Assembly (NCBI GenBank): GCA_031262595.1
Contig: JAISHI010000020.1
Span: 1 to 51,808, forward strand
Origin: Christensenellaceae bacterium
Lineage (GTDB): Bacteria; Bacillota; Clostridia; Christensenellales; UBA1242
Direction: 5' to 3'
Length of the DNA stretch: 51,808 bases
The notes beneath the pieces were generated by a model. It saw nothing but the letters and a program-made list of their open reading frames with translations. It made no database searches and had not been told where the DNA came from. Below, one piece after another: positions 5,095 to 44,956 of the stretch (positions within the stretch are counted from its first letter, which is position 1; every line of letters begins with the position of its first letter). The position numbers were made by a program, and so were the translations under genes.

Positions 5095-6933
5095 TTAGTT
5101 CGGGATGCAAAGTTGTTGCCCGATTTGGAGGCGGTCGCTAGTTATGCCACTCGCGGCTTTTATCGCGTTGACCGTTGTTCCGTAGCGGTTCGCGAGCGCC
5201 CAAAGCGTATCACCCGCCTTAACCGTATAAGGAGTGCAGCCCGTTCCGCCGCCGCTTGGGATACAAAGTTGTTGCCCGATTTGAAGGTTGTCGCTAGTTA
5301 TTCCGCTCGCGGCTTTGATTGCGGCAACCGTTGTTCCGTAGCGTTCCGCGAGTTTCCAAAGCGTATCGCCGGCCTTAACCGTGTATGGTGTGCAATCTGG
5401 GGTTGGCTCTGGGCTTGGAGTTGGCTCGTCGCCGGTACAAGGCGCGGGCTCTTCGACGGATTCGAGGAGGTAAGTCCAAGTTTTAGGCCCGACGATGCCG
5501 TCGGCGGTTAGCCCAAACGCATATTGGAAGGACTTAACCGCGCGTTCCGTTTGGCTGCCGAACTTCCCGTCGACTTCGCCGATATAATAGCCGAGTTTGC
5601 GCAAGATTTCTTGCACTTCCGTAACGTAAGCGCCAGTCGAGCCGAACTTTAAGGTTGGGCGCGAGTATGCTTGCGGAGTTGGGGTTACTCTAACGCGCTC
5701 TTTGCTCGCGGCTAGGACGCTTTCGGGCGTGTTTCTTTGAAGTCCAGCAACAGCAGTATAAGCGAGCGAGATTTTCCACCAAGTGCTTTTGCCGACGACG
5801 CCGTCTTGCGTTAGGCCAAACGCTTTTTGGAAAGCTTTAACGGCTTGTTCCGTCGCGTCGTCAAAATAGCCGTTTAGGGTCGGGATTTTTGGGATAGCGG
5901 GGTAATTCGTTCTAATAACGTTAAGCATTCTTTGCATATGTAAAATCTCGCCCGAGCAATCGCCTTTTCGCATCGCAACGCCCGGATATGAACTAGGCAA
6001 ACTATCAACAACAGGCGCGGTTTTGATTGTTATATCATCCCCGTAATAATATTTTAGTATTTGGTCGCAAGTATAACCGCGAATCGCGAGCTCTTGCGAA
6101 CCCCATTGGCTCATTATGCCGGGCGTCGTTGTGTCGGAGCGGTATTGGGCGAGATAAGGTTGCGGAACGTTGCCTTTTACTATGTATTGGTTAAAGAGTT
6201 CGTCGACCATGTCGTTAATGGTTTTATAAATCGTTGCGCCCGGAATATATTTATGGTCGGTGTTCGTATCGCTCGTTATCGTGAAATTATAGCCTTTACT
6301 TGGATACCATTCCGTATAGATGCGGTTAAGCGTAAACGAAATTATCGCGCGGATGTTCGCGCAAAGGGCAGCAGGCTTCCAAGTCGAATAAATCTCATTG
6401 CTCGCAACATTTTTTATGTATTCGGTAAACAAAACGCGGTAGTTCGCGGCGGAGGAGTTTGTCGCCGCGCCGTCATGCACGATTATATAAGAAGGGATAA
6501 CAACGTTTTCTAAAACGCGCGGATCGGCTTTAAGCGGGTTTTCGGTCGGCTTGTTTTCGTCGCAACAAACTTCGAGAACCGGCAGGCGGACGTCATTCTC
6601 TTTGCCTTTCGTTTCTCCCGAGGTTAGCATAGCGATGTCTTGGATTGCCGTTTCGCCGGAAAAAATGCGGACGTTTTCGACGGTCGAGTCCGCGTAGCCC
6701 GATTTTTTTGCGCGTATTGTATAGAGCCCGAACGGCAACGCGGAACTTTGCGTTTGTGAAAGTTCGCGGTTTGGCGCGCTTAAAACTATGCCGTCGGCGT
6801 TTCCACTTTCGTCAGTTGTTCCGCTCCAAACACTCCGCCCGTTCGCGTTAAAGACCTCAATTCTAACGCCCGAGAGCGGCGCGCCGATGTTTCCTCCTGT
6901 TGTTGTTTTTATGTTTAAATTTCCTGTTTCCAT
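5095..6933 (-). CDS. SpoIID-like protein with two PG-binding domains and two LysM repeats
   Basis: A 612-aa protein probably acting on or binding peptidoglycan. Domains in order: an N-terminal beta-sandwich, carboxypeptidase-regulatory-like (about 1-105); a SpoIID/LytB-like region (about 140-305) ending SQWGSQELAIRGYTCDQILK and YYYGD, the classic SpoIID tail; two PG_binding_1 domains (about 325-395 and 425-490, each with the FQ-x-GL-x-DG-x-VG pattern); then two nearly identical LysM repeats (YTVKAGDTLW) at about 515-560 and 568-612. No signal peptide is visible at the N-terminus METGNLNIKTTTGG. The promoter is leaderless. SpoIID is a lytic transglycosylase in sporulation; whether this one is active is not known. 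Confidence 0.85.
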   Translation of the reverse strand: METGNLNIKTTTGGNIGAPLSGVRIEVFNANGRSVWSGTTDESGNADGIVLSAPNRELSQTQSSALPFGLYTIRAKKSGYADSTVENVRIFSGETAIQDIAMLTSGETKGKENDVRLPVLEVCCDENKPTENPLKADPRVLENVVIPSYIIVHDGAATNSSAANYRVLFTEYIKNVASNEIYSTWKPAALCANIRAIISFTLNRIYTEWYPSKGYNFTITSDTNTDHKYIPGATIYKTINDMVDELFNQYIVKGNVPQPYLAQYRSDTTTPGIMSQWGSQELAIRGYTCDQILKYYYGDDITIKTAPVVDSLPSSYPGVAMRKGDCSGEILHMQRMLNVIRTNYPAIPKIPTLNGYFDDATEQAVKAFQKAFGLTQDGVVGKSTWWKISLAYTAVAGLQRNTPESVLAASKERVRVTPTPQAYSRPTLKFGSTGAYVTEVQEILRKLGYYIGEVDGKFGSQTERAVKSFQYAFGLTADGIVGPKTWTYLLESVEEPAPCTGDEPTPSPEPTPDCTPYTVKAGDTLWKLAERYGTTVAAIKAASGITSDNLQIGQQLCIPSGGGTGCTPYTVKAGDTLWALANRYGTTVNAIKAASGITSDRLQIGQQLCIPN

Positions 6934-6939
6934 GAGATT

Positions 6940-6968
6940 TTTATATGACCGCGAAATTATTGTGTGAA
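6940..6968 (-). promoter_or_regulatory. Promoter of the SpoIID/LysM gene (leaderless)
   Basis: TTCACA-17 bp-TATAAA on the reverse strand, 6 nt before ATG at 6933. The -35 touches the potD terminator. Confidence 0.55.
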
Positions 6969-6992
6969 AAACCCCCGAGCGCGTCGAGGGTT
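6966..6992 (-). terminator. Terminator of the potABCD operon
   Basis: Reverse-strand hairpin AACCCTCGA/TCGGGGGTT (one mismatch) followed by Ts, 30 bp after the potD stop. Confidence 0.65.
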
Positions 6993-7023
6993 CTTATCGA
7001 ATTTTTTAAGTAAGGGTGATTTG

Positions 7024-8418
7024 TTATCTGCGTTTGCGGATAAAGAGGAAGTATGCGCCGGTTCCTATGCCAGCCGCGCCAACTACGCCGAGAACAATCC
7101 AAAGCCAAAGTAAGTTGTTTGCTGCCGCGCGTTTAACGCTTTCCCAAAGGTCGCTAACTTCGGCGGTTTTATCCGCGTCGAAAGTCTTCATAGGCGCGCA
7201 ATATTCTAGAACTTCGCTAGGAGTGAAAACGGTATCTAAATACATTTGCATTTGTTCTTCGCTGTCGTAATCTTCAACGTCGCCCCACCAATCTTCGGTT
7301 TTCATTAAGTCAACCGCCGCCGTAACTGCGCTCTCGCAACCAACATAGTCCATGTTTGCGGCTGCGTTATCAACGTCAAGCATAAAGTTGATGAATTTAT
7401 GAGCGGCGTCGATGTTTTCGTTATAGTTCGGGCAATCTGGGATAACAAAGTTATCAATCCAAACATTGCTGCCTTCGGTTGGAACATAATATTCAAGGTC
7501 GGAGTTATCCGCCATAGCGATGCCCGCGTCGCAAGACCAATAGAGGCCCATGTATTTTTTGCCGGCTCCGGTTATAAGATCGTTTTTGCCTGCGTCAGTT
7601 TCGTAGTCGGGCGCGGTAACCTCAATTTGGTCCATGAGAACCGCTCTTGCGATATCAAGAGAGAAAGCGTCTTCCGCGTTTAAAACTTTCGAGAGTAAGG
7701 CTTGATATTCGGCGTCATAGTCGTTGGTTTGGTCGCTATCGTCGAGCTTAGCCGCGTTTAACAGCGCGCCGCGATTCGCATAAAGCATTGCAATCGCAAC
7801 GCTATCCCTAGGCGCGTCTTTCATCGTGATTTTGCCTTTATATTTCTCGTTCCAAAGAACAGCCCAGCCTTGTTCCTCGATATCGGCTTTAAGGTTCTCA
7901 TCGAGAGTTGGGTTATACATAATCCCCATTGTTCCATACATATAAGGAACGCTATGGGCGTTATTTTCGTCGTATGCTTCCATATATTCTAAAACTTTCG
8001 GGTTTAGGTTTGATTTTGCAGTTCCTGCATTGGTGAGTTCGCTCCAAGTAATAGGGTGCGCGAGATTTTCTTGAACCATTTTGCCGACCATATAGTCGCT
8101 AGGGATAACGAGGTCGAATTTCCCGCCGTTTTTAATTGCGTTATACATTGTTTCGTTTGTATCCCAAGTTGAATATTCAACAGTTATGCCGGGGTTTGCC
8201 GCCTCGAAAAGCGCAACCATATCCGCGTACTCGTCTTCTTGTCCGAGCGCCATATAGTCCTCAACATTATAAATGATGAGTTTGTTTGGGTTTGTTGCCG
8301 CCACTGCGTCAACCTTATTTGCGCCGAGATTTTTAAATGGCGCGAAGAGCGAAACTGCCGATGCAGTTAGGGCAACTGCGCCGAGGGCTATTCCGCTTAG
8401 TAATTTTTTTGTTTTCAT
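7024..8418 (-). CDS. potD: Spermidine/putrescine-binding protein PotD with C-terminal membrane anchor
   Basis: Extracellular solute-binding protein of a polyamine ABC importer. The protein has 464 aa. A signal peptide or anchor (residues 1-42, MKTKKLLSGIALGAVALTAS) precedes LIIYNVEDYMALG, then FDLVIPSDYMVGKMV and NVWIDNFVIPDCPNYNENI, as in PotD. Unusually, the C-terminus has a transmembrane helix (about 437-460, LLWLWIVLGVVGAAGIGTGA) and a basic tail FIRKRR, so it is likely anchored at that end; no LPXTG motif and no lipobox were seen. The ribosome site aaaaaggagaaaa precedes ATG. It is the last gene of the operon, with a terminator after it. The ligand is inferred. Confidence 0.9.
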   Translation of the reverse strand: MKTKKLLSGIALGAVALTASAVSLFAPFKNLGANKVDAVAATNPNKLIIYNVEDYMALGQEDEYADMVALFEAANPGITVEYSTWDTNETMYNAIKNGGKFDLVIPSDYMVGKMVQENLAHPITWSELTNAGTAKSNLNPKVLEYMEAYDENNAHSVPYMYGTMGIMYNPTLDENLKADIEEQGWAVLWNEKYKGKITMKDAPRDSVAIAMLYANRGALLNAAKLDDSDQTNDYDAEYQALLSKVLNAEDAFSLDIARAVLMDQIEVTAPDYETDAGKNDLITGAGKKYMGLYWSCDAGIAMADNSDLEYYVPTEGSNVWIDNFVIPDCPNYNENIDAAHKFINFMLDVDNAAANMDYVGCESAVTAAVDLMKTEDWWGDVEDYDSEEQMQMYLDTVFTPSEVLEYCAPMKTFDADKTAEVSDLWESVKRAAANNLLWLWIVLGVVGAAGIGTGAYFLFIRKRR

Positions 8419-8458
8419 TTTTTCTCCTTTTTAATTATTGTCAACATGTTATTAAAAA

Positions 8459-9295
8459 CTAAATCTTTTCAGTTTGCAAATTATTTTTTCGCTTCTTTTT
8501 CGGCTTTATATTTATCGCGATTAAAACTATAAAGACGACTAGCATAATTATTGCCGTTAAGGCTCGAAATTGTGGCGGAACGCCGCGTTTTGTTGAGGAA
8601 TAGACGATTGTACTTATCGTTTGAACCGAGCCGAAGTTGTTGTTATATTGGGTTATAACGAAGTCGTCGAGCGATAGCGTAAAGCCTAAGAGGAACGCGG
8701 TGAGCATTGCGGGAATTATTTGCGGCAAGATTACGTGGGTAAATGCGTAGAAGGGTTTTGCGCCTAAATCCGTCGCCGCGTCATAGAGGTTCTCGTCGAG
8801 TTGGCGCATTCGCGGCATAATCGTTAGGATTATAAACGGCAACGAGATTAGAACATGCGCGATTATAAGCGTTATATACCCGATTTCAACCGCTGATTTT
8901 ATCGAGAAGACCCCAAGCGCAACGAACGAGAGCATCAACGCGAAGGAAGTCACTATATCCGCGTTTATAACGGGAATTTGGTTCATGTTCATGAGGAGGT
9001 TGCGCGATTTTTGTTTCATCGCTTGGATTCCAGTGCAAGCCAACGTTCCTATTATTGTTGCGATAAGCGACGAGATTATTGCGATTAAAACCGTGTTGCC
9101 GACCGCTGTCATTATGGCTTCGTTCGCAAAAAGCGATTTATAAAGCCCGAAGCCGAATTTAAAATCCTTAAACGCGTCGAAAGTTATTGTTCTGCCTGCC
9201 TCGCTAAACGAAAAGACAACCAGAACCATTATGGGCAAGTATAATAGGAGCAAAACGAAGAAGATAAAGAGCCTAGAGAAGATTTTTTTAACCAT
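8459..9295 (-). CDS. potC: Spermidine/putrescine ABC transporter permease PotC
   Basis: Inner-membrane permease subunit, 278 aa, with six predicted membrane helices starting at residues 8-30. The permease EAA loop is visible as AATDLGAKPFYAFTHVILPQ, which contacts the ATPase PotA. DDFVITQYNNN is characteristic of PotC. It follows PotB after 1 bp, so the two are tightly coupled. Confidence 0.93.
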   Translation of the reverse strand: MVKKIFSRLFIFFVLLLLYLPIMVLVVFSFSEAGRTITFDAFKDFKFGFGLYKSLFANEAIMTAVGNTVLIAIISSLIATIIGTLACTGIQAMKQKSRNLLMNMNQIPVINADIVTSFALMLSFVALGVFSIKSAVEIGYITLIIAHVLISLPFIILTIMPRMRQLDENLYDAATDLGAKPFYAFTHVILPQIIPAMLTAFLLGFTLSLDDFVITQYNNNFGSVQTISTIVYSSTKRGVPPQFRALTAIIMLVVFIVLIAINIKPKKKRKNNLQTEKI

Positions 9296-9296
9296 T

Positions 9297-10094
9297 TTAC
9301 CAAAGCCCTCCTCGTTGGTTTCCTATCTTACTCAAACGGTTTGTTGCCATAACTGACATCGCGACGACGAGTAACAAAATTATCGCGATAACCGAACCGC
9401 GCCCGTATTTGCCAAAACTCGCGTTAAAAACGTCGTTGAGTTGTTGCCCAATCATATAGGTTTTCGAACTACCGAGATATTCGCTTAAATAGTAAGTTGA
9501 AACCGCAGGCGTAAAGACCATTAAAAATCCGCTGATAACGCCGGGTATTGAGAGGGGAAGCGTTACGGAAGCGAAAGTTTGCGATGGGCTCGCGCCAAGG
9601 TCGGCGGAAGCCTCGCGATATTTCGAACTAACGTTTTTAAGGACGGTATAAATCGGCATAATCATAAACGGCAAGAAATCGAGGACAAGCCCGATGATGA
9701 GCGTTCCCATGCCGGTTTGAAGGTTAGAGCCGAGAACCGCGTAAAGGAGTTGTTTCGTCGCGAACGCGCGCAAGAGCCCGTTGACCCACATCGGCGCGAT
9801 AAGTAGCATTAAGATTATTGGCGCGGATTTTGCTTTCGATTGCGCTAGGATATAAGCGACAGGATAACCCAGCGCGATACAAATAACAGCCGTTATAAGC
9901 GCGATTATTATCGAGTTTAATAGGATTTGCAGCGAGCCGTCGGTGAAAAAGTTTTTAACATATTCAAACGAAAAGCCGTCGCCCGAGAAAAACGCGAAAT
10001 AAAATAATAAAAGCAGCGGGAACAAAACGAACATTATTAAAAAAACAACAAACGGAATCGCAAAAAAGATTCGCGCGCGGTTATTCGTCTTCAT
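9297..10094 (-). CDS. potB: Spermidine/putrescine ABC transporter permease PotB
   Basis: Permease partner of PotC, 265 aa, with six membrane helices. The EAA loop [20 protein letters not shown] and the PotB-like segment [20 protein letters not shown] are visible. It overlaps the end of potA by 14 bp, indicating translational coupling. Confidence 0.93.
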
Positions 10095-39567: not shown

Positions 39568-39606
39568 GTTCTGGTAGCTCAGCTGGATAGAGCATCGCCC
39601 TTCTAA
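39568..39606 (+). pseudogene. 5' part of a disrupted tRNA-Arg(TCT) gene; attL
   Basis: GTTCTGG-TA-GCTC-AGCTGGAT-AGAGC-A-TCGCC-CTTCTAA: acceptor 5' strand, full D arm, anticodon 5' strand and the whole anticodon loop. After CTTCTAA the sequence (taatgtaatc) cannot complete the tRNA. Its promoter survives (TTGCAA-18-TAATAT just upstream). The missing part is at 44919-44956. Confidence 0.9.
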
Positions 39607-39777
39607 TAATGTAATCTATGCTGTATCTTGTGGCGGTTTATTAAGTAAAAGCGGTATATGTTGTGGTTTTCGTTAAGATTTTAGAATTTCGTAGAATAAT
39701 TCCATAGTTTAGTTCCATACAAACATCGATTTTCCTTGTTTTTTCCCAGTTTTCATTCTATACTAGGCTCACATTAA
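39607..39777. other. attL-proximal arm of the element, possible integrase arm sites
   Basis: No gene. Imperfect direct repeats TGTATCTTGTGG and GTATATGTTGTGG, and AT-rich inverted strings around gaatttcgtagaataattcc, could be arm-type integrase sites. The tRNA promoter TTGTTT-17-TATACT begins near 39738. Confidence 0.4.
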
Positions 39778-39854
39778 GTTCGGGTAGCATAACTGGATAA
39801 TGCACGTGCCTTCTAAGCACGTGAGTGTGGGTTCGAGCCCCGCCCCGAACGCCA
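39778..39854 (+). tRNA. tRNA-Arg (anticodon TCT) carried by the element
   Basis: Complete cloverleaf: acceptor GTTCGGG/CCCGAAC, D stem GCAT/ATGC, anticodon stem CGTGC/GCACG with loop CTTCTAA, T stem GTGGG/CCCGC with loop TTCGAGC, discriminator G and encoded CCA. It decodes the same codons as the split gene but differs from it in most stems, so it is not a copy of the target. A promoter TTGTTT-17 bp-TATACT lies about 13 bp upstream. It ends 5 bp before the integrase stop (opposite strand). Confidence 0.95.
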
Positions 39855-39859
39855 AAATG

Positions 39860-41266
39860 CTAAACTACTGACTTCAGCATACCGTTAAGTATGTCTGCCA
39901 CGTCTTTGTTATCTTCTTCCATGTAATGGGCATAGACCGACAACGTAATGTTTGGGTTAGAGTGTCCGCAGAAGTTTGCAACCGCCTTTGGCGAAATCTT
40001 TGCACGCAATAGACGCGTTATAACACTATGTCGAAGCGAGTGCAATGATACGTGTTGTAATCCGTTTTGGTTTAGCATTTTATCTAACCATTTACTTGGG
40101 GCGCGCGTGCTTAATTGCCCCCCATCATAGCGAGTGAATACCCAATTCCCCTCTTTCCAAATATCTTTGAGCCTTAATTTTTCCATGTCTTGCCATGATT
40201 TGTATTCTAAAATTATTTGCAATAAATTTTCTGGAATTGGAATACGCCTTTTTGATGTTCTTGTCTTTGGCTCTTTCGTAACCATTTTGTGAAACGGCGC
40301 ACCAACGTATGACGAACTGCGCAAAATCGAAACAAGGCGTTTTTCGAAGTCGAAATCTCCCCATTGCAAACCAAGCAACTCGCCTTTGCGTATCCCCAAA
40401 GTAAATAATGTTGCGATAACTGCTTTATGCTGTATATTGCTTTCGTTGTTAATGGCATTTTGCAAAATGTCGCTTTCTTTTTGTGTTAAGATTTTCTTCT
40501 CTGGGACTTCGCCGTAAAGGTCGCCTATTGATACAGTGTTTTTCGCTGGGTTTCTACCTATTATTTCTTCTTTAACGGCTGAATTGAGTATTGCAAAGAG
40601 TGTTCTGCGGTAAATCAATTTTGAGCTTTTACTGTAAAAGGTTTTGCTTTTTATCCTTTCGAAATATTGAGAAACATTTATGCCCAAAGCTTTCGCTATG
40701 ATTTCTGCCAACTCCCACCGTATGTTTTTGCCGTGACGAGCATAATAAATAGTTGCGGTTGATATAGGGAACTCTCGACATATATCGTCAATGCAGATAT
40801 GTTTTGTCTTGATTACTTCATCAAACGATTTTATCATTTTCGCCGTGTCGGGTCTATCTAACATTTTCCCATTGAGAAATTTAGCTACCGCTTTGCAGTC
40901 GCTTGGATTCATAGTTTTAAGTGGAATATGCCCGATTAAACTGTTTAAGTCTTTAACTATTTTCATGTTTCGGCTGTAAGATGTTGGGGAATTTTTACGC
41001 CGGCTATCTTCCAACCACTCGTTAGCATGTTCGGCAAAAGTTTTCCTTGAGTTGAAACTTATTTTATTCTCGATTTCTTGTTTTGCCTTTTCATGGACTT
41101 CATTGTCAAAGTTAATTGCTATCGCCCTTGCTTTTCGAGACGCGTCATGCGCGCTCATTTCTTTTGGTTTTCGCCAACTTGTGTTATACGATTTACCTTT
41201 TACCATTGCTTGTATTTGATAAACCACCGTGCCGTCTTTTAGACTTCTCGTATGAATTGTTGCCAT
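39860..41266 (-). CDS. int: Tyrosine recombinase (integrase)
   Basis: Site-specific integrase of the element, 468 aa. Catalytic residues: Arg in TLGIRKGELLGLQWGDF, His-x-x-Arg in HSLRHSVITRLL, His in ANFCGHSNPNIT and Tyr nucleophile in LSVYAHYMEE. An N-terminal arm-binding domain and SAM-like core-binding domain (about 60-200) precede it; between about residues 165 and 205 a helix-turn-helix-like segment (FPISTATIYYARHGKNIRWE) seems inserted. It adjoins attL and the tRNA, as usual for tRNA-targeting integrases. It is 1 bp downstream of the excisionase-like gene. Confidence 0.95.
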   Translation of the reverse strand: MATIHTRSLKDGTVVYQIQAMVKGKSYNTSWRKPKEMSAHDASRKARAIAINFDNEVHEKAKQEIENKISFNSRKTFAEHANEWLEDSRRKNSPTSYSRNMKIVKDLNSLIGHIPLKTMNPSDCKAVAKFLNGKMLDRPDTAKMIKSFDEVIKTKHICIDDICREFPISTATIYYARHGKNIRWELAEIIAKALGINVSQYFERIKSKTFYSKSSKLIYRRTLFAILNSAVKEEIIGRNPAKNTVSIGDLYGEVPEKKILTQKESDILQNAINNESNIQHKAVIATLFTLGIRKGELLGLQWGDFDFEKRLVSILRSSSYVGAPFHKMVTKEPKTRTSKRRIPIPENLLQIILEYKSWQDMEKLRLKDIWKEGNWVFTRYDGGQLSTRAPSKWLDKMLNQNGLQHVSLHSLRHSVITRLLRAKISPKAVANFCGHSNPNITLSVYAHYMEEDNKDVADILNGMLKSVV

Positions 41267-41267
41267 T

Positions 41268-41525
41268 TTAATTTACTCCTTTTCTTAAAAAATTTAATAA
41301 ACTGTCCCAATAAATTAACTGTTTATTGCCGTTTACAGACAGCGCCTTGATTTTGCCTTTCCGCATCCATTGACGCAAAGCATAATCGGTAATTTGACAC
41401 CCTTGGTCTAAAACCTTTAACTCCTTTATCGTTTGTTCAACCGTGCGAAGTTTTGGAACTTGTTGCGACGTAGCAACCGATAAAGTTTTATTTGACTGTC
41501 CGAAATAATCTTCGAATAATTTCAT
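41268..41525 (-). CDS. Excisionase-like helix-turn-helix protein
   Basis: An 85-aa protein with a MerR/excisionase-type winged helix: GCQITDYALRQWMRKGKIKAL then GNKQLIYWDSLLNFL. Such proteins bind the attachment sites and bias the integrase towards excision. The ribosome site gaaggaggaaaaa precedes the ATG. It is in one operon with int. Confidence 0.8.
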   Translation of the reverse strand: MKLFEDYFGQSNKTLSVATSQQVPKLRTVEQTIKELKVLDQGCQITDYALRQWMRKGKIKALSVNGNKQLIYWDSLLNFLRKGVN

Positions 41526-41702
41526 GTTTTTTCCTCCTTCTGTTAAATTGAAAGTGGTATTAAATACCCTTTGTATCCATAATATCGAAACTACTAGTTT
41601 CTATTTTGATTTTCATCATCCGTGCGATTATTATAGGTTCAAAAAATCAAGTTTGGCTTGCAAAACATTTTTTAAAAAACTTTTTTCATGTTAAATTGTT
41701 GT

Positions 41703-42002
41703 ATGGATAAAAATGAAAGATATCAACTTACCTGTGAGAAAAAATGGCATGAAAGAGAAATAAGAGGCTTTATTCGCCAAAGATATGAAGACATTATTCG
41801 CGCAACTGGTCTTTCAGAATACGAATTGTCCATTCGTATAGGGTATTCAAAACAAACACTTCGCCAAATAGTAATTGGCGAACGAAAACCATCTGTGCAT
41901 GCCTTATTTTGGTTTTGTAAAAATGTTGGTATAACGCTAGGGCAATTTGCTGATGCCGATATCGACGAGATAAGAAAAATCGTTCGAGATAAATTTAAAT
42001 AA
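41703..42002 (+). CDS. Cro/CI-type helix-turn-helix regulator
   Basis: A 99-aa DNA-binding protein, divergent from xis-int. The HTH reads ATGLSEYELSIRIGYSKQTL then RQIVIGERKPSVHALFWFC, a typical XRE fold. Start ATG at 41703 (MDKNERYQLT) is preferred over 41688; a TTAAAT -10 lies 6 nt upstream, again leaderless. Position between divergent integration genes and cargo suggests it is the element's repressor. Confidence 0.8.
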   Translation: MDKNERYQLTCEKKWHEREIRGFIRQRYEDIIRATGLSEYELSIRIGYSKQTLRQIVIGERKPSVHALFWFCKNVGITLGQFADADIDEIRKIVRDKFK

Positions 42003-42010
42003 ACTTACTT

Positions 42011-42040
42011 TTGACAAGCGCAATTACCCTATGTTAAAAT
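42011..42040 (+). promoter_or_regulatory. Promoter of the structured RNA / GIY-YIG gene
   Basis: TTGACA-18 bp-TAAAAT; transcription would start near 42047, at the base of the long stem. Confidence 0.75.
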
Positions 42041-42044
42041 GCGA

Positions 42045-42184
42045 TTGCGACACATTTCTAGCTTACTGGAAAGGATAACCCTTTTTGCCTACTCGGCGGG
42101 GGCTTCCACCTTTTCAGTAAGGAAGTGTGTCGCAACACGGGAGTTTTCGCAGTTAGGACTGCACTCCCGCAAGGGAGTGCTTTT
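42045..42184 (+). ncRNA. Structured leader RNA with terminator/antiterminator pair
   Basis: TTGCGACACATTTC (42045-42058) pairs with GAAGTGTGTCGCAA (42122-42135), and CTTACTGGAAAGG (42062-42074) with CCTTTTCAGTAAG (42109-42121): a 27-bp stem with a 3-nt bulge and a 34-nt GC-rich apical region. Then CGGGAGT (42138-42144) can pair with ACTCCCG (42163-42169), enclosing the GCAGT/ACTGC hairpin, or ACTCCCG can join the terminator GCACTCCC-GCAA-GGGAGTGC-TTTT (42161-42184). The two are mutually exclusive, as in riboswitches and attenuators. No known family recognised. Confidence 0.65.
42161..42184 (+). terminator. Intrinsic terminator before the GIY-YIG gene
   Basis: 8-bp GC-rich stem, GCAA tetraloop, then four Ts, 15 bp before the ATG. 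Confidence 0.75.
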
Positions 42185-42198
42185 ATAAGGGGGCGAAA

Positions 42199-42930
42199 AT
42201 GAACGAACAAAACTCGAAAGTAATTTATATACTTACAAATCCATCTTTTCCCGAATATGTAAAAATTGGGTATGCGGACAATCTCGAAAAACGATTAAGA
42301 GAGTTGAACGGTTCTTGTTGCACGCCATTTGCGTTCCGTGCATTTGCAACATATACCGTTGAATCTCGGCTCGCCGATTTAGATGTCCATACCATGATAG
42401 ATTCATTGAACCCTAAACTTCGTTCGATAGATTTTTTAGACGGTAAGGAACGCAAACGCGAGTTTTATGCTATCTCGCCTGAGAGTGCATACAAGATTTT
42501 ATTGACCATTGCTAAGATAAGTAATACGCGTGATAAGCTTAAAATCATTGCACCTACCGAAGCGGATAAAAAGAATATTATCTCTGCCGACATGATTCGT
42601 GAGAATAGCGAGAATGAACTCGACAACCAAGATTTAGATTTATCTTTGATAGCCAAAGACGATATTCTTTTTGCAACTGCTTTTATCGACAAATGCAAAA
42701 TCCCTGCAAACTTTTTGTCGTCCGTAAGGTTTGCAGTCATAAATGGCAAAAGTTATGCTCCAAAATATACCGTAGCGGTTGCATATCTTCATACTCATGG
42801 GGTCAATGAAAATGAAATTGCCAACAAAATTTCGCGCGATAAATTGCTCGGGCGCTTTCGAACTCATAATGCTATTATACTCCTAAAAACCCTTGGCTTT
42901 TATATCGAGAACAAAAGCACCGCGGAATAA
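42199..42930 (+). CDS. GIY-YIG (T5orf172-type) nuclease-family protein
   Basis: A 243-aa protein. The N-terminal domain (about 8-105) fits the T5orf172/MUG113 branch of GIY-YIG nucleases: VIYILTNPSFPEYVKIGYAD, LEKRLRELNGS, VHTMI and REFYAIS, with the conserved Tyr, Arg and Glu-like positions. The C-terminal half (about 130-243) is unrecognised and helical. The ribosome site aagggggcg precedes the ATG. Expression probably depends on the attenuator-like RNA upstream. On a mobile element such a protein could serve DNA transactions, regulation or phage defence; no activity is proven. Confidence 0.78.
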   Translation: MNEQNSKVIYILTNPSFPEYVKIGYADNLEKRLRELNGSCCTPFAFRAFATYTVESRLADLDVHTMIDSLNPKLRSIDFLDGKERKREFYAISPESAYKILLTIAKISNTRDKLKIIAPTEADKKNIISADMIRENSENELDNQDLDLSLIAKDDILFATAFIDKCKIPANFLSSVRFAVINGKSYAPKYTVAVAYLHTHGVNENEIANKISRDKLLGRFRTHNAIILLKTLGFYIENKSTAE

Positions 42931-43173
42931 CATCGCCGTGTCGCCTTGTAATTTGAACTGTGTGCGATTTTAAGGCGTTCGTGCGGATATTTTGCCAATT
43001 TCGCGGTGTCCGCCGTTAGAGCCTACCCTATGCGGTTATCTTGTATTTCATGGTGTTTTTGTATTGGCTATGGCTATCGCCGTTTTAGGTCGTTTTGCTC
43101 AGCGGAAAAGGCTCGTTTTGTAGTTGTTTTCATCGCTATTTCGGCGCAAACCGTATTGCTTTCATGAGCGCTT
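42931..43173. other. Intergenic region between convergent genes, nothing identified
   Basis: 243 bp between the GIY-YIG and HD hydrolase genes. No open frame of note, no clear terminator and no repeat was seen. Confidence 0.5.
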
Positions 43174-43944
43174 TCAACCGTTAAAAACTAGATTATAATA
43201 CTTCTTTAATTTTTGATATGGTGAAAACTCGCCCATGTCGAGCGATTTTATAACTCCGTCATAATACCATTGCAGTTCGCGCTTGCTTGCATTAAATCGT
43301 GTCCATACATACTCACCGCAATCTAACCAATCGTAATAAATACTTATGATGTTAGATAGTTTGTCCGCACACGCAATTTGTTTAATTGGCATGCTTGCGG
43401 TCTTTAATCGGTCAATGGTGGCTTGTTTGCGCTCCTGCCATGATTTAGATTTATCCTCGCTCTCGCCCTTAACCATATCCGCAATCTCTTTGCCAAATAA
43501 TTTTTCAATGTCGTTTTGAGTGGCGGTCGTGTCTTCTATGGTGTCGTGTAAAATGCCCGCCACTATCGTTTTATAATCACAACCCGCGCTCGATAAAATC
43601 TTCGCCACTTCCATAATGTGTGAAATATAAGGGGTTTGGGTGCCTTTGCGTATTTGGTCTTTGTGCTGTATCGTTGCGTATTGTATGGCGCGGTGTAAAA
43701 TAAGGTCAGGGTCGTCTTCATGTCGAGATATAAAGGCTTTCGCTTCTTTCCATGTGATTTCCTCTTGTTCGTCCACTCGAAAAGAACCGTAGTCGTGTCT
43801 TGCATCTTCCAAGTCCAAATCCCACTTTGGCTTTGATACCCACTTTCCGTCTATATACCATTCGTATGGTTGGGCTAAACGTTGGCTTGCGTTTCTGGCT
43901 ATTTGCTTTGACATTACAAAATATCGATAATCCTTTTCATCCAT
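43174..43944 (-). CDS. HD-domain hydrolase of the RelA/SpoT type
   Basis: A 256-aa protein with the SpoT-like hydrolase fold: YISHIMEVAKILSSAG (first His), AGILHDTIEDTTATQNDIEK (the HD pair plus ED), and ACADKLSNI (last Asp). It lacks a synthetase domain, so it resembles a small alarmone hydrolase that would degrade (p)ppGpp or a related nucleotide. The first 85 residues are a separate unknown region (YEWYIDGKWVSKPKWDLDLE). Start MDEKDYRYFV at 43944 is favoured over 43986; the exact start is unsure. Cargo of the element; substrate not shown. Confidence 0.78.
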   Translation of the reverse strand: MDEKDYRYFVMSKQIARNASQRLAQPYEWYIDGKWVSKPKWDLDLEDARHDYGSFRVDEQEEITWKEAKAFISRHEDDPDLILHRAIQYATIQHKDQIRKGTQTPYISHIMEVAKILSSAGCDYKTIVAGILHDTIEDTTATQNDIEKLFGKEIADMVKGESEDKSKSWQERKQATIDRLKTASMPIKQIACADKLSNIISIYYDWLDCGEYVWTRFNASKRELQWYYDGVIKSLDMGEFSPYQKLKKYYNLVFNG

Positions 43945-44114
43945 GTTATAATCATAAAATGAAAACAACCGTAAGTCAATTCGCATTATGCTTTGGGGGA
44001 ATCAAATCGTTTTCGGACGCTTCGCTATAATTTTCATTCTTCATAACTAATATGGTTTCCACGGCATTAACATAATTTAAACAGTTTAAGTTTGCAATAT
44101 AATATCACTGCTAG

Positions 44115-44156
44115 CATGCTATATATAATAAACAACATGCTATATATAATAAACAA
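44115..44156 (+). repeat. Perfect 21-bp tandem repeat, two copies
   Basis: Two adjacent identical units starting catgctatatataataaaca; each includes TATAAT. They lie 15 bp past the stop of the reverse-strand 44171 gene, possibly iterons or promoter duplications. Confidence 0.85.
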
Positions 44157-44170
44157 AATGAAACGCATTC

Positions 44171-44713
44171 TCACCTTTTTTCGCTTTCTTTTTCATTTGT
44201 ATCCCACCAAAATGAGTTCGTATCCCAAAAGTCGACTTGGCTATGTTTCCCTTTGTCTAAAAAATACTTCATAGCAACACGAACCGTATTTAATGCGGTA
44301 AGACTTATTTCGTAAATACGCCTAAATCGATAATGATTGCAACCGTATTGGTCTTGTCTTGACGGTGTGTAGCCATTATAATATCTAATCATGCCAAGGT
44401 CTTTTAATTTCTTAACATTTGACTGCAACATCCCTGGTTTTATGTTCGCTTTTTTCCAACGGCTTGACGCAACCCAAAAAGTGTTCTTAGTATCCTCTTG
44501 CCCATAATTGATTAGCCAATAATTATTGCAAAGAACGCAATATACTCTTGCCATATTGAACGCCGTCACGGCGTTTGTTCTGGACGACTTTGGTTTTGTT
44601 GCATTTAACCATTGCTCAAACGCATTTTGCAAAATATATGGTTGTATAGCACCACCCGTGCATTCCTTTTGCATTTGCAATAACTCATTTCTAATTTTCT
44701 CATATAATTCCAT
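44171..44713 (-). CDS. Unknown protein of the element, possible winged-helix
   Basis: A 180-aa soluble, basic protein, not recognised. The segment MLQSNVKKLKDLGMIRYYNG resembles the recognition helix and wing of a winged-helix DNA-binding domain (about 90-120). Further parts, such as RTNAVTAFNMARVYCVLCNN, are helical. The ribosome site ttaaggagaaattta sets the start. As the last gene before attR it might be a replication or control protein; no proof. Confidence 0.6.
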   Translation of the reverse strand: MELYEKIRNELLQMQKECTGGAIQPYILQNAFEQWLNATKPKSSRTNAVTAFNMARVYCVLCNNYWLINYGQEDTKNTFWVASSRWKKANIKPGMLQSNVKKLKDLGMIRYYNGYTPSRQDQYGCNHYRFRRIYEISLTALNTVRVAMKYFLDKGKHSQVDFWDTNSFWWDTNEKESEKR

Positions 44714-44911
44714 TTTAAATTTCTCCTTAATTTTTTAAGGAAAATCGACTATCAAAATTTCATACTTTTTCCATAGATGTTTTCTAAACGAAATTATTTC
44801 TTTCAAAAATCACCACGCAATACAAAAGTTGCTTCTTTACAAACCAAAAATTACTGCTGTAAAACGCGACTAGAAGCGCATTTAGGAGCGTTTCAAACGC
44901 TACGTAAATAT
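44714..44911. other. attR-proximal arm of the element
   Basis: About 200 bp without a convincing gene. Contains the inverted repeat GCGTTT-C-AAACGC (about 44888-44900) next to attR, a plausible integrase or excisionase site. Confidence 0.4.
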
Positions 44912-44956
44912 CTTCTAAGGCGGTGGTCGCGTGTTCGAATCACGCCCAGAACGCCA
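44912..44956 (+). pseudogene. 3' part of the disrupted tRNA-Arg(TCT) gene; attR
   Basis: CTTCTAA-GGCGG-TGGTC-GCGTG-TTCGAAT-CACGC-CCAGAAC-G-CCA: anticodon loop (shared 7 bp), anticodon 3' strand, variable loop, T arm, acceptor 3' strand, discriminator and CCA. Every stem pairs with the fragment at 39568-39606 (acceptor GTTCTGG/CCAGAAC, anticodon TCGCC/GGCGG). No promoter of its own. Confidence 0.92.

Follow-up and report, generated by a model that had tools for sequence, protein, structure and literature searches.

Known Fates of tRNA Genes Targeted by Mobile Elements

Islands of the Islander type, inserted into tRNA genes by tyrosine integrases, supply the part of the tRNA that integration displaces, so that the target gene is rebuilt (PMC4383910). 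A different principle, tRNA-dependent lysogeny, has been demonstrated experimentally for mycobacteriophages, which recombine through a core of 8–17 bp, break an essential tRNA gene and must carry a replacement in order to lysogenize (Guerrero-Bustamante and Hatfull, mBio 2024, PMC10865867). The targets in these actinophages are tRNA-Lys(TTT), Ile2(CAT), and Leu(CAA), as proven by tRNA deletion, and phages with related integrases that do rebuild the tRNA are noted in the same study (PMC10865867). One possible earlier case, cited there, is the Lactobacillus johnsonii prophage Lj965, which is reported to leave the tRNA at its junction unrebuilt and to carry a cognate one. The principle itself is thus already known, and the suggestion made in the first-pass annotation of the locus presented here, that a strategy of this kind may be little described, has been overtaken by the 2024 work.

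A Split tRNA-Arg(UCU) Gene and the Element between Its Halves

The stretch of DNA analyzed as a whole, hereafter the window, comprises 51,808 nt of a Christensenellaceae bacterium (GCA_031262595.1, contig JAISHI010000020.1, positions 1–51,808 of the forward strand), from an assembly of 811 kb in 29 contigs, estimated as 83% complete. The features of the split gene and of the element are as follows.

39568..39606, + strand: 5' half of the host tRNA-Arg(UCU), ending with the attL core CTTCTAA (39600–39606); recognized by ARAGORN when the halves are joined, no tRNA alone
39607..39777, + strand: left end of the element, an inferred attP arm of 171 bp between the core and the carried tRNA, in the same position as the left arms of relatives
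39778..39854, + strand: intact carried tRNA-Arg(UCU), CCA encoded (ARAGORN; Rfam RF00005, 63.6 bits)
39860..41266, − strand: tyrosine integrase, 468 aa, with SAM-like and catalytic domains (Pfam PF00589, 9.2e-27; PF14659; PF13102; family alignment)
41268..41525, − strand: small protein immediately upstream of int, from a family of 8 members adjoining int
41688..42002, + strand: HTH regulator (PF01381, 0.00066, below cut-off; PHROG transcription-regulation families)
42036..42198, + strand: strongly structured leader ahead of the gene at 42199..42930 (MFE −71.7 kcal/mol, z −7.4)
42199..42930, + strand: candidate phage-defense protein PDC-S57 with a T5orf172/MUG113 (GIY-YIG-like) domain (PADLOC PDC-S57, 1.1e-53; Pfam T5orf172, 4.7e-10)
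43174..43986, − strand: HD-domain phosphohydrolase (PF13328 HD_4, 6.6e-20)
44171..44713, − strand: protein of unknown function, 180 aa (open reading frame only)
44912..44956, + strand: attR core CTTCTAA (44912–44918) and 3' half of the host tRNA-Arg(UCU) with CCA (44919–44956), joining to the 5' half

When positions 39568–39606 and 44919–44956 are joined, a 77-nt tRNA is obtained, which ARAGORN reads as Arg(tct), as the first-pass annotation had proposed; its stems are complete and CCA is encoded. The sequence common to the two ends is exactly CTTCTAA, the 7-nt anticodon loop, and the interval it delimits, as well as the predicted circle, measures 5,312 bp. The predicted attP reads TACGTAAATAT-CTTCTAA-TAATGTAATC. 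No tRNA is recognized by ARAGORN at either junction or at this attP, in agreement with the earlier statement that the joint at attL cannot fold into a tRNA, and with only 7 bp repeated at the ends of the element, restoration by a long repeat of the 3' part, of the Islander type, does not apply. The intact tRNA-Arg(UCU) located between attL and the integrase is a clearly different gene, as had also been claimed, being 77% identical to the split one; the integrase is transcribed convergently with it. A promoter of its own, attributed to it previously, could not be substantiated, as a single weak consensus match was found versus 1.1 expected by chance, none being convincing. When applied to the whole window, a detector of split tRNA genes returned this one place only, while it returned nothing on control loci totaling approximately 1.18 Mb, and no ARAGORN-supported split on 20 shuffles of 21.8 kb.

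In the left arm, an imperfect direct repeat, TATCTTGTGG/TATGTTGTGG, with a spacing of 33, can be seen; it is weak, and a role of this arm in providing arm sites is inferred. Related elements possess left arms of 127–146 bp in the equivalent position. The integrase shows in addition a weak internal match to a Cro/C1-type HTH (PF13443, below cut-off). The small protein upstream of it, common to most of the elements, has no Pfam or PHROG match and can be called excisionase-like by position only. No Rfam match was found for the structured leader, and no Pfam, PHROG or PADLOC match for the 180-aa protein. The PHROG matches within the element are limited to the integrase, regulators, the phosphohydrolase and unknowns, and with its size of 5.3 kb the element does not qualify as a temperate phage. 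Direct evidence of a circle is lacking, since a pattern spanning attP had no match in viral contigs.

A covariance search points to 35 tRNA-like places in the source assembly, 34 of these read as tRNAs by ARAGORN, and the only Arg genes among them are the carried UCU gene and one ACG gene. The count of tRNA-Arg(UCU) genes called for by the first-pass annotation thus gave no intact copy other than the carried gene (39778–39854), a result limited to an assembly that is 83% complete: a second UCU gene could sit in the missing 17%.

Elements of the Same Plan in Other Clostridia

With the joined tRNA and the integrase as queries, relatives were found that repeat one plan: the 5' half of a host tRNA, an arm usually of 127–171 bp, an intact tRNA of the same anticodon, an integrase with cargo, and the 3' half. 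We count about 19 such elements in Clostridia, of which 10 have both halves on one contig and 9 are cut by contig ends; a search for other integrases adjoining a complete tRNA whose loop matches their core had been proposed in the first-pass annotation. In all 10 one-contig cases the joined halves are recognized as a tRNA by ARAGORN, and the 9 others carry a tRNA with the same loop. The one-contig elements are five in tRNA-Arg(CCU) (G010, 16.4 kb; G049, 12.3 kb; G101, 12.1 kb; G105, 7.6 kb; G112, 15.5 kb), three in tRNA-Arg(ACG) (G047, 10.2 kb; G052, 13.1 kb; G120, 3.9 kb), one in tRNA-Arg(CCG) (G108, Pumilibacter intestinalis strain CLA-AA-M10, 12.3 kb, at approximately 98455–110844 of its third contig) and one in tRNA-Ile(GAU) (G027, 12.8 kb). 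Halves situated on two contigs also join to a tRNA in G051, G100 and G117 (the middle of the G117 element is not covered), while in G004, G104, G106, G109, G110, G119 and G125 a 5' half is followed by a carried tRNA, the far end being absent from the data or not found. The integrase does not adjoin the tRNA in G049 and G112, where it is encoded a few kb into the element, and in G107 the 5' half is not recognized and may be decayed.

Weaker relatives involve Thr(GGU) (L050), Arg(UCG) with a decayed half (L106) and Arg(CCU) (L111). The history of an Ala(GGC) locus (L149) is ambiguous: two broken 5' halves are present, but the 3' half is equal to that of the intact tRNA. One further computed split (L319) was discarded, being without ARAGORN support. 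The isotypes thus comprise Arg (UCU, CCU, ACG, CCG) and Ile(GAU), with partial cases for Thr, Ala and Arg(UCG), and the anticodon of the carried tRNA equals that of the split gene wherever both are readable.

The boundary of these elements is best seen at L139, L142 and L144, where, in three genomes, practically one element end follows three different host 5' halves. The identity starts directly after CTACGGA, which places the crossover in the 7-nt loop or bounds it by this loop. An empty site is available for the G052 element: the sister species G016 and G116 possess an intact tRNA-Arg(ACG) with the genes of the left and the right flank of G052 on either side. For the element of the window the empty site that the first-pass annotation had asked for was not found, the flanking genes and MurF showing no synteny in the relatives, none of which is of the same genus; in the other genera examined MurF is not next to tRNA-Arg(UCU). 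A search for an empty site in the genus of G010 likewise gave no syntenic match, and it was in the course of this search that the split in G125 turned up.

As to the need of the host for the carried copy, the two 97%-complete genomes G047 and G052 were searched by pattern for tRNA-Arg(ACG); apart from hits lacking the form of a tRNA, the carried gene and the 3' half of the split gene were all that was returned. In G027 (93% complete) the sole intact tRNA-Ile(GAU) is the carried copy, the host gene, located downstream of tRNA-Ala as in an rRNA operon, being split by the 12.8-kb element. Dependence of the hosts on the elements, for a possibly essential tRNA, is inferred from such sole copies. 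For tRNA-Arg(CCU), the commonest target here, the need is less evident: as the UCU tRNA can read AGG, this tRNA may be dispensable. No CCU tRNA matching the search pattern was found in G037, yet this genome contains a stacked break.

Cargo and Integrases

Little is common to the relatives beyond the integrase and its small neighbor. The cargo includes type I restriction-modification (G010), an MmeI-like type IIG system (G047), AlwI-like restriction-modification (G105), Hachiman HamAB (G101), a type II methyltransferase (G049), an AriA-like ATPase (G120, in an element without a recognized integrase), an AbiLi-like protein (G125) and a BspA-type surface protein (G052). The cargo is mostly anti-phage defense. 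No phage structural genes were found among the proteins scanned; these did not comprise every gene, so the status of a satellite is not excluded. An HMM search revealed no integrase of the same family in the G120 element or in the covered part of the G125 element, suggesting that some of the islands may not be mobile, or may be mobilized in trans.

In a tree of integrases (74 rows), the elements carrying a tRNA cluster strongly, with 8 changes versus 18 in shuffles, a result beyond all 500 label shuffles, and they do not form a single clade. Two loci of the conventional type, L122 and L140, with 44–45-nt repeats of the 3' half, were also encountered, and the integrase of L122 (44-nt repeat), retained as a conventional case though its integrase reads as two frames, is close to that of a carrying relative. 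Given this proximity and the absence of a single clade, elements can probably acquire the strategy or lose it.

Stacked Elements and Successive Replacement Genes

Stacks of broken genes provide evidence on the fate of the carried tRNAs. In G106, a broken half is followed by a 147-bp arm of the G049 type and by the 5' half of the G049-type carried tRNA (39/39 nt), and these remnants by a 127-bp arm of the G010 type with the intact carried tRNA of the G010 type. In G037, an arm of the G010 type and half of its carried tRNA precede a further element. As read from the order of these remnants, with halves of carried tRNAs standing behind their own arms, the replacement tRNA of one element is the landing target of the next. 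The right side of G106 remains unexplained, as the far-end 3' half matches neither of the broken 5' halves. Two halves in succession are also present in L123, G100 and L139, and a second element lies directly in tandem in L142. Outer halves are decayed in G100, L142 and L106, as would be expected of a gene that has become superfluous. The conversion of a replacement tRNA into the target of a subsequent element had escaped the first-pass annotation.

The carried CCU tRNAs are 97–100% identical across genomes (G010/G106; G049/G101/G104), versus only 58–82% between them and the host genes split in G010, G049 and G101, suggesting that in these cases they move as part of the element. Carried and host genes are closer to each other in the ACG elements, with 89–91% identity.

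These observations lead us to a broader proposal, which we favor somewhat over its negation: that the only intact copy of a host tRNA comes to reside in one defense island of Clostridia after another, with each arriving element breaking the current copy, sometimes that of its predecessor, and supplying its own, so that the host is tied to the island and host tRNA genes are progressively replaced by mobile ones, the older halves decaying. If so, a host gene would be passed from one mobile element to the next.

Which Explanation Fits the Data

We consider it highly likely that the locus in the window is a small integrative element, probably an anti-phage defense island, whose integrase uses a 7-bp core in the anticodon loop of a tRNA gene and breaks the host gene, the loss being offset by a carried tRNA of the same anticodon. 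The tyrosine integrase would recombine the core with the anticodon loop, and as attP shares 7 bp only, integration would leave the host tRNA gene as two nonfunctional pieces. The loss would then be offset by the carried tRNA, complete and with an identical anticodon, which mostly sits 127–171 bp inside one end; this tRNA is presumed to be expressed and charged, and to substitute for that of the host for as long as the element stays in place. With no expression or charging data at hand, functional replacement is inferred. Clean excision should restore the host gene, an inference made without excision data, while loss of the element by any other route would remove the carried tRNA, and integration would thus make the cell dependent on the element. 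As the carried tRNA keeps the same loop, it can serve as the next landing site, which yields a series of broken tRNAs that ends in a single intact one. The idea of the first-pass annotation, that the damage is offset by an isoacceptor and a 7-bp match therefore suffices, gains support from the recurrence with four anticodons of Arg and with Ile, the carried and the split gene agreeing in anticodon wherever both are readable, from the absence of another intact tRNA-Arg(ACG) in the two 97%-complete genomes, and from the syntenic empty site for G052, the function itself being an inference.

The same arrangement might be read as a conventional tRNA-targeting island, with the host gene rebuilt as the intact tRNA beside int and the outer half left over by chance or decay. 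A tRNA adjoining the integrase is indeed typical of such islands, and L122 and L140 represent them among the relatives; however, attL and attR of the window share 7 bp only, it is with the far-end half, not with the intact tRNA, that the outer half makes a perfect join, the same being true of 10 other elements, and the uninterrupted site in the sister species of G052 bears an intact tRNA-Arg(ACG). We hold this reading to be very unlikely, and for the complete cases it is contradicted. Unlikely too, if a little less so, is that the carried tRNA is cargo serving other ends, such as resisting tRNA-cutting defense or the reading of Arg codons, with the break in the host gene incidental. Phage tRNAs have been proposed to act against tRNA-degrading defense (discussed in PMC10865867), and an AriA-like protein is among the cargo of G120, but neither the match of the anticodon to the split gene over five anticodons and two amino acids, nor the position of the tRNA adjoining the attachment site, is predicted on such grounds. 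An artifact of assembly or binning at both junctions might be invoked on account of the fragmented assembly of the window, but can hardly be maintained when the same architecture is found in approximately 20 separately assembled genomes, including that of Pumilibacter intestinalis CLA-AA-M10, with the boundary always in the anticodon loop.

Relation to Known Systems and Implications

The elements of Clostridia meet the structural criteria of the tRNA-dependent lysogeny principle (PMC10865867), namely a tyrosine integrase (Phage_integrase, 9.2e-27 in the window), attB in a host tRNA gene, a short core, a host tRNA that is not rebuilt, and a carried tRNA with the anticodon of the split one, with the exception of that of a temperate phage. 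The core is of 8–17 bp in the described systems versus 7 bp here, exactly the anticodon loop, and temperate actinophages are replaced by elements of 3.9–16.4 kb in Clostridia, with mostly defense cargo and mostly tRNA-Arg as target. Re-targeting is seen here as genomic stacks, whereas only tandem plasmid insertion is speculated upon in PMC10865867. Lj965 is reported to be similar in having no rebuilt tRNA and carrying a cognate one, but it is a prophage and a single case. With the Islander islands (PMC4383910) the elements share tyrosine-integrase-mediated residence in tRNA genes; those islands supply the missing part of the tRNA and rebuild the gene, whereas the elements of Clostridia leave it broken and carry a separate tRNA.

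No report of the same strategy in non-phage islands was found in the literature, most subscription journals being outside the search. What is new is the occurrence in small non-phage defense islands of Clostridia and its breadth (Arg with four anticodons and a fifth in part, Ile, and in part Thr and Ala), along with a core that is exactly the anticodon loop, an empty site, and genomic evidence of carried tRNAs being re-targeted.

Overall, a mechanism proven only in actinophages is now extended to small defense islands of another phylum and to more tRNAs, suggesting a simple route by which an island may become indispensable without a toxin. Tools that assume that tRNA-targeting islands always rebuild their target will miss or misplace such elements. 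The cases also show how mobile tRNA genes can supplant those of the host, and that split tRNA genes of bacteria can be read as landing scars.

Stacking in tRNA genes and a proposed relay

In the proposed relay, one element inserts into the replacement tRNA brought by an earlier one. The following carried gene was found at L111 (G011, contig C1):

7433-7509, tRNA-Arg(CCU), GCAGCCG type, carried

The 5' half and anticodon arm of this tRNA match the gene split by the complete 16.4-kb element of G010, and it is possible, judging from this sequence alone, that it represents one more relay step. Two stacked tRNA-Arg(CCU) halves, along with an integrase, are present at L295 (G037:C64:31800-51721), and a pattern search of the G037 assembly returned no CCU tRNA matching the pattern; the newest element there may be without a replacement tRNA. 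In the G106 stack (L279-L281, end of contig C18 and start of contig C22), the distal 3' tRNA half pairs with neither of the two broken 5' halves present; stacked cores may have recombined to produce this unpaired half, or it may reflect an assembly join.

A stack is also seen at a tRNA-Ala(GGC), in a MAG of a different Bacillota lineage (L149, G126:C3), with two broken 5' halves, both followed by similar arms, and one intact gene.

Integrase layout and a structured RNA

The integrase family, including the window integrase (39860-41266), possesses an additional segment that follows the SAM-like domains and precedes the catalytic domain (about columns 160-225 of the family alignment, A1); it resembles a Cro/C1 helix-turn-helix, on the strength of an HTH_26 match below the cut-off.

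Immediately 5' of the PDC-S57 gene of the window element lies:

42036-42198 (+), RNA of very stable structure (z -7.4), two hairpins

This RNA has no match in Rfam, and a search of viral contigs for sequence identical to the second hairpin found none.

An island without a family integrase

One island, at L314 (G120:C6), has the following layout:

5947-9919, 3.9 kb, split tRNA-Arg(ACG) and a carried tRNA

Its cargo is an AriA-like ATPase and a second protein, and no integrase of the window integrase's family is encoded within 5947-9919; the island is possibly mobilized in trans.
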